Positions 17,503-24,676 of a stretch of 64,000 nucleotides of DNA are shown here, piece after piece; the first letter of the stretch is position 1, and each line of letters starts with the position of its first letter. The position numbers and the translations under genes are program-made. This DNA is from Enhydrobacter aerosaccus. GTDB lineage: Bacteria; Pseudomonadota; Alphaproteobacteria; Reyranellales; Reyranellaceae. The notes under the pieces are model-generated. The model did not search any database. It was not told the origin of the DNA and was given only the letters and a program-made list of their open reading frames with translations. The stretch lies in contig NZ_FUWJ01000001.1 in the NCBI RefSeq assembly GCF_900167455.1, forward strand, positions 992,001 to 1,056,000. Direction: 5' to 3'.

Positions 17503-18027
17503 TCAACGGACGCTGACACCTTCGTGCGCAAGCAGCCAGCGCTTGCGCTCGAGACCGCCGCCATAGCCGGTCAGGCTGCCATCCGATCCGATCACGCGAT
17601 GGCACGGCACGACGATGCTGACGGGGTTCTGTCCGTTGGCAAGTCCGGCGGCGCGAATCGCCTTGGGCTTGCCGATGCGCCGGGCCAGTTCGGCATAGCT
17701 GATGGTCGCGCCGTCCTCGATCCGCCGCAGGGCTTTCCAGATCGCCGTCTGGAATGCGGTGCCGGGCGCCGCGGCCGGCAGGCTGGCAAGGATGGCGATC
17801 TCGCCCTTGAAGTAGCGGCGCATGGCGGCGGTCAATCCGCCCGGATCGCGCTTCGGCTGCAGTCTGTATCCGTGACTGCCGTAAGCGCGCGCGAGCAGTT
17901 GGTTCATGCGTGCTTCGTGATCCGTCCAGTCGATGGCGCGCAGCTTGCCGTCGCCGTCGGCGATGACGATCAACTCGCCGATGGGCGTGGCGAGCCGGTC
18001 GTGGAACAGGATTACCGGCTCAGCCAT
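17503..18027 (-). CDS. ogt: Methylated-DNA-[protein]-cysteine S-methyltransferase (Ogt)
   Basis: Suicide repair protein (174 aa) that takes the alkyl group from O6-alkylguanine onto its own cysteine. The active site PCHRVIG gives Cys142. The helix-turn-helix part TISYAELARRIGKPKAIRAAG and the closing LTGYGGGLERKRWLL are canonical. The start at 18027 (MAEPVILF) overlaps the end of the upstream Ada-like gene by eight bases, so the two are cotranslated. A longer in-frame reading from 18063 would add 12 residues inside that gene and is less likely. It probably belongs to an adaptive response to alkylating agents controlled by the upstream protein. Confidence 0.93.
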   Translation of the reverse strand: MAEPVILFHDRLATPIGELIVIADGDGKLRAIDWTDHEARMNQLLARAYGSHGYRLQPKRDPGGLTAAMRRYFKGEIAILASLPAAAPGTAFQTAIWKALRRIEDGATISYAELARRIGKPKAIRAAGLANGQNPVSIVVPCHRVIGSDGSLTGYGGGLERKRWLLAHEGVSVR

Positions 18028-19099
18028 GAGAGGCCATCCGCAGATGCTGGGCGGCATAGGCATGCCAGGGCCGCCATGCCGGCGGCGCGTCGGAATCGAG
18101 CGAGGTCCCCACGGTGTCGCGGTCCCAGTCGCCCGGCGCGCGCAGGCCCGGCCGTTTGGCGATCAGCGGCGCGAGCTTGGGATCACGGGCGAGATGGCTG
18201 CCGATGGTGGCGATGTCCGCGCCCAGGTCGAACACGCGCTTCACCCGCGCCACGATCGCCGGCAGCGCCCGCACCTCGGGAAAGCGGATGGTGACCGCTA
18301 CGGCATTGCGTTCGGCAAGATGCGCAACGGAGACCGTGCCCTGCTTGCCATCGAGTTCGACGATGCGATGCCAGACATCGTCGTCGACATGCTCGAGGCG
18401 CGCATCGGCTCGCGCGGCAAGGGCTTCGAGCATCCCGGTCCAATCATAGGGCGGCCGATAGGAGAGGCGCAGGGTGACACCTTCCTGGGCGGAGTGGCTT
18501 GTCCCGGTTCCGGCCGCCTTATGGCCGCGACGCAGGGCGCTGGGCGGACGGCCGAACATCTTGCGGAACGTCTCATTGAAGCGGCGCACGCTCCTGAACC
18601 CGGCCGACAACGCCACCTCCGTCATCGGCAGGCGCGTATCGTGGATCAGGTGCTTGGCGAAGAGCACGCGCCGCGTCTGCGCGACGGCGATCGGCGAGGC
18701 GCCGATATGCTGCTGGAACAGGCGCCGCAGCTGGCGGCCGCCGACCCCGAGCCGGGCGGCCAGCGCCTCGACGCCGGCCTCGCTCTCGTCGAGCGCCCCG
18801 TCGGCGATCAGCTTCAGGGCCCGATTGACCGTGTTGGACGTGCCGCGCCAGAAGGCCAGTTCGGGTGCGATCTCCGGACGGCAGCGCAAGCAGGGCCGGA
18901 ACCCGGCCTCCTGGGCGCCGGCTGCCGAGGCGAAGAAGCGGCAATTCTCGAACTTGGGCACGCGGGCCGGGCAGATCGGCCGGCAATAGATGCCGGTCGA
19001 AGTGACACCCACGAAGATCCGGCCGTCGAAGCGCGGATCGTGCGTCTGGAAGGCCCGGTAACAGGCCTCGCGATCGAGCAGTTCGTTGGACTGGTTCAT
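18020..19099 (-). CDS. Ada-AraC-AlkA-type regulator lacking the glycosylase core
   Basis: Starts with an Ada metal-binding domain, with zinc ligands Cys39 and Cys43 (IYCRPICPAR) and Cys70 and Cys73 (RPCLRCRPE). An AraC helix-turn-helix region (about 95-190, MTEVALSAGFRSVRRFNETF) and an AlkA N-terminal domain (about 205-315) follow. In AlkA proteins the sequence RPGLRxPG is followed by a HhH-GPD domain of about 130-150 residues with the catalytic Asp, and the protein ends in a WRPWRAYA-type helix. Here RPGLRAPGDWD runs within about 15 residues into AWRPWHAYAAQHL, so the middle is missing without loss of frame. It can probably still sense alkyl damage and activate transcription, but not excise bases. 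The start is uncertain (19099 or 19153). Confidence 0.85.
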   Translation of the reverse strand: MNQSNELLDREACYRAFQTHDPRFDGRIFVGVTSTGIYCRPICPARVPKFENCRFFASAAGAQEAGFRPCLRCRPEIAPELAFWRGTSNTVNRALKLIADGALDESEAGVEALAARLGVGGRQLRRLFQQHIGASPIAVAQTRRVLFAKHLIHDTRLPMTEVALSAGFRSVRRFNETFRKMFGRPPSALRRGHKAAGTGTSHSAQEGVTLRLSYRPPYDWTGMLEALAARADARLEHVDDDVWHRIVELDGKQGTVSVAHLAERNAVAVTIRFPEVRALPAIVARVKRVFDLGADIATIGSHLARDPKLAPLIAKRPGLRAPGDWDRDTVGTSLDSDAPPAWRPWHAYAAQHLRMASHG

Positions 19100-19156
19100 G
19101 CCGTCGATGATTTCACCGTTGCGGCGGCGTCGCTGGCGGTTTTCGGACTTCATTGG

Positions 19157-21033: not shown

Positions 21034-22005
21034 TCAAGCCGCGAGCCTGTGCTGGATGGCTCCGGCCAGGACGCGATAAATGGGATCGGGGCGGACGAAG
21101 TCCTCCTGCAGGCAGGCTTCGGTCAGTTTGACGGCGTGCTCGTCGTCATGGGCGACAGCCCGGCCGGCCAATTCTTCCCAAGGCAGCGAAGGCTGGAGCG
21201 CCAACGTCTCCGGCGCGGATGGTGCCGAACCCAAAGCAAGGCCGGCGATGTTCCTTCCCACACGTCGCACGCGCTCGCAGGCGTGCCAACCGACATCCGA
21301 GCAGAGGAGCGGCAACAGGGTGCGCAGCGCGGCCGCGGATGTGATCGTGTGGACCAGCTGGATGACGGAAACGATCTTTCGGTCGAGGTGTCCGAGCAGA
21401 AGGCGGGCATTGAAGGCCGTCCAGGCGCTAAGCACCAGGCTGGTCTCGGGTCGAGCCGCGTCTCGCGGCATGGTCGTCTCCAGAGCGCCATCGTCTTCAG
21501 GAGACCGATAGGTCGCGGCCCAATAGGCAAGACCACGCGCCAGCTCGTCGATCTGCAAGTCTGTCGGTTGGCCGTCCGCAGGCATGCCACGGACCGCATG
21601 GGCGGTCCGGATCAGGCCGTGGGTCAGCCCGCCCGCAAGACCGTCGATCAGCCGGGGAATCCACTCCTTCGTCGCATCCTGCCATTGGGTTTCGGACAAC
21701 TGGCGGCCAAAGAAATCGTGCCAGTCGGACAGGCGGGAGGGATCGCCAAGAGCGCTCCGCCAGTTTTCCATGTCGGATCCGTCGTCGGATCCGTCGATCG
21801 CTCGATAGCGAGGCGGCGGCTCCTTGTGGCGCCGTCGTCTCTTGTAGGAGTCCACCCAGCCCGCCACCGCCTCGTCATGGCCCAGCATGCTGATGGCTTC
21901 CGCGACCATGGGACCGTGCCCGGCATAGTCGGGCCCCCAGGTGAAGCCGACGTCGTGCAGGCGTGCCAGGGCGTCGTTTATCGCCTCTTGCCGTGACATC
22001 GTCAT
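21034..22005 (-). CDS. Questin oxidase family protein (DUF4243)
   Basis: Protein of 323 aa matching the questin oxidase-like family by its GHGPMVAEAISMLG, DWHDFFGRQLSETQWQDATKEW, GGLTHGLIRTAHAVR and LARGLAYWAATY motifs. The fungal founding member performs an oxygen-dependent ring opening of the anthraquinone questin, with a flavin or nicotinamide source reported; the bacterial members are mostly unstudied. The ATG at 22005 has GGAG seven bases upstream. It diverges from soxR, and the spacer contains a SoxR box inside a promoter that reads towards this gene, so it is very likely a SoxR target induced by redox-cycling compounds. Confidence 0.75.
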   Translation of the reverse strand: MTMSRQEAINDALARLHDVGFTWGPDYAGHGPMVAEAISMLGHDEAVAGWVDSYKRRRRHKEPPPRYRAIDGSDDGSDMENWRSALGDPSRLSDWHDFFGRQLSETQWQDATKEWIPRLIDGLAGGLTHGLIRTAHAVRGMPADGQPTDLQIDELARGLAYWAATYRSPEDDGALETTMPRDAARPETSLVLSAWTAFNARLLLGHLDRKIVSVIQLVHTITSAAALRTLLPLLCSDVGWHACERVRRVGRNIAGLALGSAPSAPETLALQPSLPWEELAGRAVAHDDEHAVKLTEACLQEDFVRPDPIYRVLAGAIQHRLAA

Positions 22006-22037
22006 CGTCGTTCTCCGCTCGGGCATCGCATCGACAC

Positions 22038-22068
22038 AGGCTACAAGTTCAAGTGAACTTGAAGTCAA
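22038..22068 (-). promoter_or_regulatory. MerR-type promoter with 19-bp spacer for the questin oxidase gene
   Basis: On the minus strand TTGACT (22068-22063) and TAGCCT (22043-22038) are separated by 19 bases. A 19-20 bp spacer is the hallmark of promoters switched on by MerR-family proteins such as SoxR, which untwist the DNA. The SoxR box lies within the spacer. The -10 is weak, as expected for an activator-dependent promoter. Confidence 0.65.
22048..22063. promoter_or_regulatory. SoxR box (operator)
   Basis: TTCAAG-TGAA-CTTGAA: perfect 6-bp arms around four bases, closely matching the E. coli soxS operator core CTCAAG-TTAA-CTTGAG. It lies between soxR and the questin oxidase gene and may also control soxR itself. 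Confidence 0.75.
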
Positions 22069-22094
22069 GTGACTCGACCGCGATACTGCCGATC

Positions 22095-22571
22095 ATGAAA
22101 GACGTCCTGCTGACGATTGGCGAGGTGGCGAAACGCAGCGGCGTCGCCGCCTCCGCCTTGCGCTATTACGAGGAGTGCGGCCTGATCGCCTCGGAAGGGC
22201 GGACGGGTTCCGGCCACCGGCGCTACGCACGATCCGTGCTGCGGCGCCTTGCGTTCATCGTGTTTGCCCAACGCATCGGCCTGTCGCTGGAGCAGATCGG
22301 AACCGAACTCGCCAAGCTGCCCGACGGCCGCATCCCGAAGGCGCGCGATTGGGCGCGACTGTCCCGTCCCTGGACGGACCAGATCGACCGGCGCATTGCC
22401 GAACTTCAGCGCCTGCGCGAGGGACTGACGCGCTGTATCGGCTGCGGATGCTTGTCGCTGGAGCATTGCGCGATGGTCAATCGTGGCGATCGTGCTGCCA
22501 CTCTCGGACCTGGCCCACTCTACTGGCGGGACGACCGACCGACCGGCAAGGGACGTGCGCCGACCCGATAG
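22095..22571 (+). CDS. soxR: Redox-sensitive MerR-family activator SoxR
   Basis: Dimeric regulator of 158 aa that carries a 2Fe-2S cluster and activates target promoters when oxidised by superoxide-generating or redox-cycling compounds. The MerR helix-turn-helix begins TIGEVAKRSGVAASALRYYE. The cluster ligands are Cys114, Cys117, Cys119 and Cys125 in CIGCGCLSLEHC, the exact C-x2-C-x-C-x5-C pattern of SoxR. The ATG at 22095 gives the family N-terminus; earlier in-frame starts run through the operator region. No soxS lies nearby, so as in most non-enteric bacteria SoxR should regulate targets directly, here the divergent questin oxidase gene. The 3' end overlaps the opposite-strand regulator by 52 bases. 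Confidence 0.93.
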   Translation: MKDVLLTIGEVAKRSGVAASALRYYEECGLIASEGRTGSGHRRYARSVLRRLAFIVFAQRIGLSLEQIGTELAKLPDGRIPKARDWARLSRPWTDQIDRRIAELQRLREGLTRCIGCGCLSLEHCAMVNRGDRAATLGPGPLYWRDDRPTGKGRAPTR

Positions 22572-23182
22572 GCGCAGCGTCGGGCTCCCGCAAGGATATG
22601 ATCGATCCGTTCGATCGCGACCTCCTTGCCGAGGACCGCCCGGAAGATCGTCAGCTCGGAACGGCACAGGCCCTGGCATGCCATGGCGGCGGCACAGATC
22701 GGGCAGTGGTTCTCGATGAACAGGAAACCGCCGCGCGCTTCTGCGACGACATCCGCCATGTAGCCTTCCCGGCTCCTGATATCGGCGAGCGCCGCCAGTT
22801 TCCCTCGCAGTGATCGCTGGCCGTCGACCGCCCGGCGATAGAGGGCGATGCTTGCGTGCTCCCGGTGCTCGATCAGTCTTTCGAGTCCGTCTTCGCCGAA
22901 GAGTTCGCGCGTCGATCTCAGCAGCTCAAGCGTCAGTTCGGAATGCCGGTCGGGAAAGCGGCCATGACCTTGCTGCGTGAGGCGCCAGCATTTCCGCGGT
23001 CGCCCGCGCCCCTGACGACGGTCCTCGCTTTCGACCAGACCGGCCGTCTCCAGCTTCAGGAGATGCTGTCGGGCGCCGACAGACGTCATGTCGAGCCGCG
23101 CGCCGATCTCGGCGGCAGTCTGCGCCCCTCGGGTCTTCAGGAGGAACAGAATTCGATCCTGGCTTCGATCGTCTTGACTCAT
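22520..23182 (-). CDS. Helix-turn-helix regulator with cysteine-rich C-terminus (SufR-like)
   Basis: Regulator of 220 aa. A DeoR/ArsR-type winged helix lies at the N-terminus (ILFLLKTRGAQTAAEIGARL, GARQHLLKLETAGLV). The C-terminal part has the cysteine signature of SufR-like iron-sulfur regulators: HCPIC (Cys160, Cys163), Cys169, Cys173, and Cys203 in ARRCAY. This suggests a 4Fe-4S or metal-sensing protein. Its tail overlaps the soxR tail, and it diverges from an MFS pump gene, which is its most likely target. A good sigma-70-type promoter precedes it. Confidence 0.8.
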   Translation of the reverse strand: MSQDDRSQDRILFLLKTRGAQTAAEIGARLDMTSVGARQHLLKLETAGLVESEDRRQGRGRPRKCWRLTQQGHGRFPDRHSELTLELLRSTRELFGEDGLERLIEHREHASIALYRRAVDGQRSLRGKLAALADIRSREGYMADVVAEARGGFLFIENHCPICAAAMACQGLCRSELTIFRAVLGKEVAIERIDHILAGARRCAYRVGARPLPVGRSSRQ

Positions 23183-23214
23183 GCGGCCACTGATTTAGAA
23201 AGCAATAAGTTTAT

Positions 23215-23243
23215 ATATTAAACGGGATGTCGGTCGCCGGCAA
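23215..23243 (-). promoter_or_regulatory. Sigma-70-type promoter of the SufR-like regulator
   Basis: On the minus strand TTGCCG (23243-23238) and TAATAT (23220-23215) are 17 bases apart, within the 93-base spacer between the regulator and the divergent MFS gene. The segment 23190-23222 is markedly AT-rich for this genome. Confidence 0.55.
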
Positions 23244-23275: not shown

Positions 23276-24676
23276 ATGGCACGGGAGTCTGTCTCGCACG
23301 GAGGGTGGCGCTCGCTTCTCAAGGTGGAGTGGGCGGCGATGCTCGCCATCCTGCTGGGCGGTGTCCTGCTGCAGTCGATGAATGTCCTGCTGCTGGCGAC
23401 CGTTCTGCCCTCCGTCGTCGAAGAGCTCGGCGGCGTGGCGATGCTGAGCTGGCCGACGACCGCATCCCTTGCGTCCTCCATCGTTGCTGCAAGCTGCTCC
23501 GGACTGCTCGCGGCGAAGTTCGGGCCCCGCAACACCTACTGCGTCGGCGTGCTGACATTCGGCTTCGGCGCCGTGTTCTGTTCGCTTGCAAAGACCATGG
23601 GCTGGCTGGTGGTCGGACGTCTGGTCCAAGGCTTTGGCGGCGGCCTCGAGGCGGCTGTGGCCTATGTGATCGTCCGTGGCACCTTTCCCGAGGCCATGTG
23701 GTCGCGGGTCATTGCCCTGATGTCGGGCAGTTGGAGCATGTCCGTCCTGATCGGGCCGCTGGTGGGAGGGCTTTTCGCCCGGTTCGGAAACTGGCGCGGC
23801 GCGTTCATCGCGACGGCAATCGTTGCGGTCCTCCTGGCGGTGAGCGCGGTGTTCGTTCTGCCACCCCTGTCGGGACGCCGGTCCAAGGCGCCAGCCGTAC
23901 CGACCGGTCGTGTGGCCTTGATCTGCCTCGCGATCGCCTCGACCTCCTGTGCATCGATTGTCGCGGCACCGATCGCCAAGACGGTACTGATTGCTGCCGC
24001 GGTCGGCATCCTGGTCGTGATGCTGAAGCTCGATCGCGCGGCGGCGACGCCCTTGCTGCCGCGTGATGCGTTTTCACTCCAAACCCCGACAGGTGTGGGA
24101 CTGTGGCTCGCCCTGTTGCTGTGCATAACCTTCAGCCCATTGCAGCTCTATGTGCCGCTCTTTCTGCAACGCCTGCACGGGTTGGATCCGCTCGCCGCGG
24201 GCTTCGTCGTCGCCAGCGGCTCGATGGGATGGACGATCGCCTCGCTGGTTATCGCCGGTGCATCGGGACGGTGGCCGGATCGATTGATGCTGGCAGGTCC
24301 GCCGATCATGGGCATCGGGTTGATCGGCATCGCCGTGCTCATGCCACTGTCGACGTTCGTGCCCCTGATCGTGGCCATCATGGTGCTGGGAATAGGGATC
24401 GGACAATGCTGGCCCCTGGTCGCTCACCGCATCATGAGCGGTGCGCGTGCTGGCGACGAAGCGACAACGGCGGCGGCCGTTCCGACAGTCCAGCAGATGG
24501 GGTTCGCGTTGGGAGCGGCGCTCGCCGGCGTCGCCGCCAACGCCAGCGGGCTTTCGGGCACACTCACCGATCAGGCCGTCGCGCAGGCGGCCTTATGGGT
24601 GCCGGTGAGCTTTGTCGCGGTTGCGGCGACCGCCAGCTTGGCGAGCCTGCGATTGAGCCACGTGCGCCAAGCGTGA
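23276..24676 (+). CDS. MFS transporter, DHA2/EmrB-like drug efflux type
   Basis: Inner-membrane proton-driven exporter of 466 aa with about 12-14 hydrophobic helices. The cytoplasmic loop LAAKFGPRNTYCVG and the helix VALMSGSW-type GPLVGGLFARFGNWR segment (motif C-like in EmrB/QacA relatives) are visible. The start MARESVSHGGW has GGGAGCGAG upstream. It diverges from the SufR-like regulator and lies in a redox island with SoxR and questin oxidase, which suggests export of quinones or other redox-active compounds. It converges on a molybdopterin oxidoreductase gene. The substrate is inferred from neighbours only. Confidence 0.82.
   Translation: MARESVSHGGWRSLLKVEWAAMLAILLGGVLLQSMNVLLLATVLPSVVEELGGVAMLSWPTTASLASSIVAASCSGLLAAKFGPRNTYCVGVLTFGFGAVFCSLAKTMGWLVVGRLVQGFGGGLEAAVAYVIVRGTFPEAMWSRVIALMSGSWSMSVLIGPLVGGLFARFGNWRGAFIATAIVAVLLAVSAVFVLPPLSGRRSKAPAVPTGRVALICLAIASTSCASIVAAPIAKTVLIAAAVGILVVMLKLDRAAATPLLPRDAFSLQTPTGVGLWLALLLCITFSPLQLYVPLFLQRLHGLDPLAAGFVVASGSMGWTIASLVIAGASGRWPDRLMLAGPPIMGIGLIGIAVLMPLSTFVPLIVAIMVLGIGIGQCWPLVAHRIMSGARAGDEATTAAAVPTVQQMGFALGAALAGVAANASGLSGTLTDQAVAQAALWVPVSFVAVAATASLASLRLSHVRQA

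Follow-up and report, generated by a model that had tools for sequence, protein, structure and literature searches.

Outside the enteric bacteria, SoxR directly activates few genes, encoding transporters or enzymes that act on small molecules, through a box in their promoters (extracts of PMC4146615). In the same extracts, the targets listed for Streptomyces coelicolor (a six-gene regulon) and Pseudomonas aeruginosa (PA2274 and transporters) comprise a monooxygenase, reductases or oxidoreductases, an epimerase/dehydratase and transporters, and none is named there as a DUF4243 protein or questin oxidase. Here, we describe a soxR gene that diverges from a gene of the DUF4243 (questin oxidase) family in a 64,000 nucleotide (nt)-long stretch of the Enhydrobacter aerosaccus genome (contig NZ_FUWJ01000001.1, positions 992,001 to 1,056,000; hereafter, the window). 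With the two described regulons this locus would share SoxR-box control of a small-molecule enzyme. Its layout is reminiscent of the mfsA-soxR locus of Stenotrophomonas maltophilia, which extracts of PMC4411124 describe as a head-to-head pair with one shared SoxR box, an over-long spacer in the target promoter and self-repression of soxR; however, the target there is a major facilitator superfamily (MFS) pump, whereas in the window SoxR faces an enzyme and the pump adjoins a gene for a SufR-like regulator. The window enzyme in turn resembles fungal GedK, BTG13, AflY and PaD in its predicted fold (over ~300 residues), its Pfam family and a set of aligned histidines and lysine, yet it is bacterial, shorter (323 versus about 440-470 residues), encoded outside a biosynthetic cluster and predicted to be under SoxR control. 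Control of small-molecule enzymes and pumps by SoxR is known; what appears new, within the open-licence literature searched, where no questin-oxidase/DUF4243-type SoxR target was found, is the enzyme class.

On balance, we favor the reading that oxidized SoxR switches on the DUF4243 gene and that its product, a likely non-heme iron dioxygenase, opens the ring of a quinone-type compound. What carries this reading can be read from sequence: the genes themselves, the SoxR box with its 19-bp register and the repeated occurrence of this arrangement in distant Pseudomonadota, as well as a matching predicted fold and a conserved His/Lys set. A preliminary description of the locus had reported divergent soxR and DUF4243 genes and an intact C-x2-C-x-C-x5-C motif in SoxR, and both reports hold (Table 1). 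The SoxR protein carries the cluster motif as CIGCGCLSLEHC, scores 176.4 bits against TIGR01950 (equivalog cut-off 116.9) and has SoxR 2zhg as its closest PDB sequence (E 8.2e-38). It is the only protein in this genome above the SoxR family cut-off, with eight weaker MerR-type matches below it. The DUF4243 gene is likewise present in a single copy, and its product matches PF14027 (Questin_oxidase, 'Questin oxidase-like') with 55.4 bits at a gathering cut-off of 27. As an account of the whole locus, the preliminary description was right about soxR, DUF4243 and the box, and it overlooked the SufR-like regulator and the divergent MFS pump.

The SoxR box was found exactly where it had been proposed, in a 19-bp-spaced promoter pointing toward DUF4243. 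This minus-strand promoter, TTGACT-(TCAAGTTCACTTGAACTTG, 19 bp)-TAGCCT, holds the box centered within the spacer between its -35 and -10 elements, as is characteristic of SoxR promoters, and its hexamers match at 9 of 12 positions, compared with 2 of 12 in the opposite direction. When the 6.77-Mb genome was searched with the pattern TTSACYTCAAGTTNACTTGARN at up to three mismatches, the window site was the single match and a reversed control pattern returned none. Together with a promoter geometry that recurs in other genomes, this led us to reject a chance box. Across 98 further DUF4243 loci (the window excluded), matches with at most one mismatch amounted to six strand counts (two each from L012 and L121, one each from L107 and L118) versus none in three Markov replicates, and matches with two mismatches to seven versus 11 in the three replicates summed. 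Two kinds of match were left uncounted. A palindrome on the Rhizobium plasmid of L121 (found at two mismatches in L122 and L124) runs into TTGACA and overlaps the -35 element, not the spacer, and was judged not to be of SoxR type; a match at position 9018 of L110 does not lie upstream of DUF4243.

By alignment search, DUF4243 was matched in 4 of 76 genomes of the window's order, in 9 of 385 sampled from its class and in 4 of 398 sampled from its phylum; the order of G165 gave 1 of 5 genomes, that of G602 gave 14 of 399 sampled and the family of G1042 gave 4 of 10. These sets overlap, and their union comprises 28 Pseudomonadota genomes with DUF4243; the large searches scored five candidates per genome, and members may have been missed. 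SoxR exceeded its family cut-off in 11 of the 28 (window 1/1, the others 5/14 and 5/13). For 26 genomes (all but G1079 and G963, both without SoxR), a single script scored the 200 bp preceding DUF4243; start codons were set mechanically, and the loci from the order of G602 were also scanned whole, with ~1.5 kb per side. A SoxR-type promoter preceded DUF4243 in seven of the 28 genomes (the window, G036, G165, G602, G1042, G994 and G845), with 9-11 of 12 hexamer positions matched and 0-2 mismatches in a box centered 47-56 nt before the start codon, while the remaining 19 scored genomes showed 4-7 box mismatches and 1-6 hexamer matches. Of the 11 genomes with SoxR, 7 thereby have the box, as against 0 of the 17 without SoxR (15 by upstream scoring and two, G1079 and G963, by locus scan, where the single two-mismatch match, at position 2030 of L159, falls inside the gene). 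In six of the seven promoter-bearing genomes soxR is divergently adjacent to DUF4243; in G602 it is encoded elsewhere in the genome, and the box has thus been kept without linkage. The G1042 family search added no new SoxR-wired case, and in the order of G165 (5 genomes) the only match was G165 itself.

Conservation of the pairing or the box beyond close relatives had been set beforehand as the point on which the preliminary description could fail. We found it in the seven genomes named above and at four places in the DUF4243 tree, and a restriction to close relatives is rejected by L107, L118, L150, L154 and L156. In this tree (31 rows), SoxR-wired proteins comprise the window and L096 (with L097, which lacks the box, in their midst), L107 by itself, L118 with L150, and L154 with L156. 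Its starred branches require no fewer than five changes of the SoxR label. Since 57 of 500 shuffles gave a count as low as the observed one, clustering of the label is not strong. Such weak clustering fits repeated gain, though the count does not distinguish gain from loss.

In the window's own order, SoxR usually faces a different enzyme. Among 30 soxR loci, the divergent partner belonged to the VOC superfamily in 16 (confirmed by Pfam in two loci) and to DUF4243 in two; the 12 unclear cases went uncounted because a wrong-frame open reading frame had been picked (6 of the 30) or a clear target promoter was lacking (another 6). The SoxR tree (25 rows) places the window protein together with L131 and L193; a further 12 SoxRs of the order, among them the VOC-linked ones, lie apart from this group. 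Given VOC as the usual partner and this separate grouping, soxR paired with DUF4243 seems to be an alternative cassette in the order rather than its default. The two cassettes share divergent layout and promoter and differ in the enzyme and, mostly, in the SoxR lineage. The VOC partners (in L130, L187, L189, L191, L193-L195, L197, L199, L201-L203, L205, L208, L210 and L211) are small glyoxalase/extradiol-dioxygenase-type genes located behind the same 19-bp promoter.

At the protein level, the window DUF4243 protein shares only 13-17% identity with GedK, BTG13, AflY and PaD, yet its predicted fold matches that of the fungal ring-cleaving dioxygenases of the BTG13/PaD type. Residues H32, H131, H221, H292 and K295 are invariant in 20 DUF4243 members; in an alignment, all five have counterparts in PaD and four in BTG13. 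Four histidines and one lysine are what we take to be the metal-site ligands of BTG13/PaD-type enzymes. By its predicted fold and the aligned His/Lys residues, the window protein appears to belong with the hydroquinone/anthraquinone ring-cleaving dioxygenases.

The block extends to a SufR-like regulator and an MFS transporter. The former scores 117 bits against TIGR02702, under the equivalog cut-off of 178.8, and is therefore named SufR-like only. Its cysteine motif, CPIC-x5-C-x3-C, is common to the window, L096, L097, L108 and L109 and may bind an iron-sulfur (Fe-S) cluster. The transporter (PF07690, 134.7 bits) has DHA2/multidrug efflux models as its top NCBIfam matches, all under their cut-offs, and is kept in L096 and L097. 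These two same-genus relatives of the window carry its block in different states. L096/L012 retains the order MFS, SufR-like, soxR, DUF4243, and its promoter reads TCGACC-19 bp-TAGACT. L097/L011 lacks both soxR and the box, and its DUF4243 gene directly follows the SufR-like gene; this genome (91% complete) has no SoxR above the family cut-off. Outside the window, the SufR-like gene neighbors DUF4243 itself in three genomes, in tandem in G041 and divergently in the alphaproteobacteria G197 and G300 (SufR-like protein at 47% identity). The spacers of SufR-like loci share an AT-rich stretch that contains an inverted repeat, whose arms measure 14 nt in L096 and 9 nt in L097; in the window the repeat is weak.

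Table 1 Features of the soxR-DUF4243 locus, in window coordinates.
Feature	Position	Strand	Remarks
DUF4243 / questin-oxidase-family gene	21034..22005	-	323 aa from ATG at 22005; predicted non-heme iron dioxygenase
-10 element TAGCCT of DUF4243 promoter	22038..22043	-	19 bp from -35
SoxR box TTCAAG-TGAA-CTTGAA	22048..22063		0 mismatches to core consensus TCAAGTTNACTTGA on minus strand
-35 element TTGACT of DUF4243 promoter	22063..22068	-	19 bp from -10
soxR	22095..22571	+	divergent from DUF4243; TIGR01950, Cys motif, nearest PDB sequence 2zhg
SufR-like regulator with CPIC-x5-C-x3-C	22520..23182	-	convergent with soxR; TIGR02702 below cut-off
AT-rich stretch in SufR-like/MFS spacer	23191..23222		candidate SufR-like operator; aligned with spacers of L096, L097, L108, L109
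MFS efflux-type transporter	23276..24676	+	divergent from SufR-like gene; PF07690

By analogy with known SoxR promoters, a redox-cycling compound would oxidize the 2Fe-2S cluster of SoxR and so activate it; bound at the over-long spacer, the oxidized form would remodel the promoter such that RNA polymerase transcribes DUF4243, and soxR would probably repress itself through the shared box. If the enzyme behaves like its fungal homologs, its iron would be held by the four histidines and the lysine, and O2-dependent cleavage of a carbon-carbon bond would act on the hydroquinone form, which a cellular reductase would have to supply. Export of the compound or its product might fall to the MFS pump, which the SufR-like regulator probably controls; in that case the locus would join efflux with destruction. 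Loss of the redox-active ring, finally, would remove the very signal that turns SoxR on. A broader proposal, which we advance tentatively and deem slightly more apt to fail than to hold, is a 'sense and shred' defense: a redox-cycling quinone oxidizes SoxR, SoxR induces a four-His/Lys iron dioxygenase, and this enzyme breaks the carbon skeleton of the quinone in its reduced form, so that the signal disappears with the ring; the circuit would have arisen independently in four or more bacterial lineages, with SoxR swappable for a SufR-like regulator. Known SoxR-induced proteins include pumps, reductases and monooxygenases; with a recurrent link to a ring-opening dioxygenase, irreversible destruction would join this repertoire. 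The link also suggests a physiological role for the bacterial members of a family still named after a fungal enzyme, and it points to bacterial enzymes that might degrade natural or polluting quinones. Since the reading predicts inducers as well as substrates, it is directly testable.

Several observations weigh against this reading. Extracts of a review (PMC9890505) state that the substrate of fungal GedK is the hydroquinone that a reductase provides, rather than the quinone, and call GedK cofactor-free, which speaks against iron for the family as a whole; a dedicated GedF-like reductase was not recognized beside DUF4243 in the window. During biosynthesis of the antibiotic minimycin, an aminopyridine-type C-nucleoside intermediate is processed by the DUF4243 domain of MinC (PMC8724604), and in Rhizobium plasmid operons (L122 2460-8790, L124 2460-8790) DUF4243 is accompanied by a flavin adenine dinucleotide (FAD) oxidoreductase, amidohydrolases and an 8-oxoguanine deaminase. 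DUF4243 chemistry may hence be wider than quinones. As to the wiring, four genomes (G042, G546, G1086 and G1124) possess SoxR and DUF4243 but no box, the DUF4243 gene being cut by a contig end in G546 and the match holding a stop in G1086. Among the best 80 of 174 DUF4243 loci, some with flanks shorter than 5 kb, the 78 non-Pseudomonadota loci showed no SoxR in the flank and no box at up to two mismatches, and soxR plus box occurred only in L012, a relative of the window. Finally, the label count on the DUF4243 tree, nearly as low in those 57 of 500 shuffles, cannot separate gain from loss. The preliminary description had cast DUF4243 as an on-demand quinone detoxifier. Of this, comparison across genomes lends good support to SoxR regulation, and the predicted fold and aligned residues support a kinship with ring-cleaving dioxygenases, whereas a quinone as the bacterial substrate stays presumptive in view of the other bacterial settings and of GedK acting on the hydroquinone.

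The same settings feed an alternative in which SoxR does control DUF4243 but the enzyme oxidizes a non-quinone electron-rich ring of the aminophenol, aminopyridine or phenazine type. The MinC substrate and the composition of the Rhizobium operons would suit such an activity, as would the fact that phenazines as well as quinone-type antibiotics trigger SoxR (extracts of PMC4146615). However, among members of known structure a hydroquinone dioxygenase and a questin oxidase come closest in fold, and PaD has all five candidate ligand residues as well, leaving this alternative unlikely, though not negligible.

Two other explanations concern the regulator. If the SufR-like protein were the main controller and the SoxR link a side branch, DUF4243 would answer chiefly to Fe-S or iron status; the SufR-like neighbors of DUF4243 in G041, G197 and G300 and the common AT-rich motif argue in this direction. 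Yet in the window soxR lies between the SufR-like gene and DUF4243, which have no common spacer; the regulator was seen in only four genome lineages (the window, G036, G041 and G197/G300); and SoxR-wired G165, G602, G1042, G994 and G845 have no SufR-like neighbor in the scanned loci, so that we regard this explanation as improbable. The 19-bp register and both hexamers fit the DUF4243 direction only, the G602 box stands before DUF4243 with soxR elsewhere, and the promoter geometry is repeated in seven genomes. All three speak against a box that serves soxR self-repression alone, with DUF4243 as a mere chance neighbor, and make this explanation very improbable even though repression of soxR from a box that it shares with a divergent gene has a precedent in S. 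maltophilia (extracts of PMC4411124).

Other DUF4243 loci point to further kinds of wiring. The Rhizobium operons of L122 and L124 lie behind a TCAAGCGCACTTGA palindrome running into TTGACA, and a side reading is that DUF4243 has a different role and another regulator there. A third kind is seen in Actinobacteria, where DUF4243 is often divergent from a MarR-type gene (e.g., in the Streptomyces/Nocardia loci L024, L065 and L040); a MarR match was obtained for 14 of 32 scanned upstream neighbors, hand-chosen from 92 with phyla mixed. The DUF4243 protein of G042 (L098 5280-6254), from the same genus as the window, shares 26% identity with the window's protein, sits on the longest branch of the tree and has no SoxR box despite the presence of SoxR. 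Adjoining the block in the window is an ABM-family monooxygenase gene (PF03992, 19431-19748) with 56% identity in L096 and L097; in the genome-wide pattern search, with three mismatches allowed, it showed no separate SoxR box. Genes for an Ada-type regulator and an O6-methylguanine-DNA methyltransferase (17503-19153) are conserved in position in L096 and L097.
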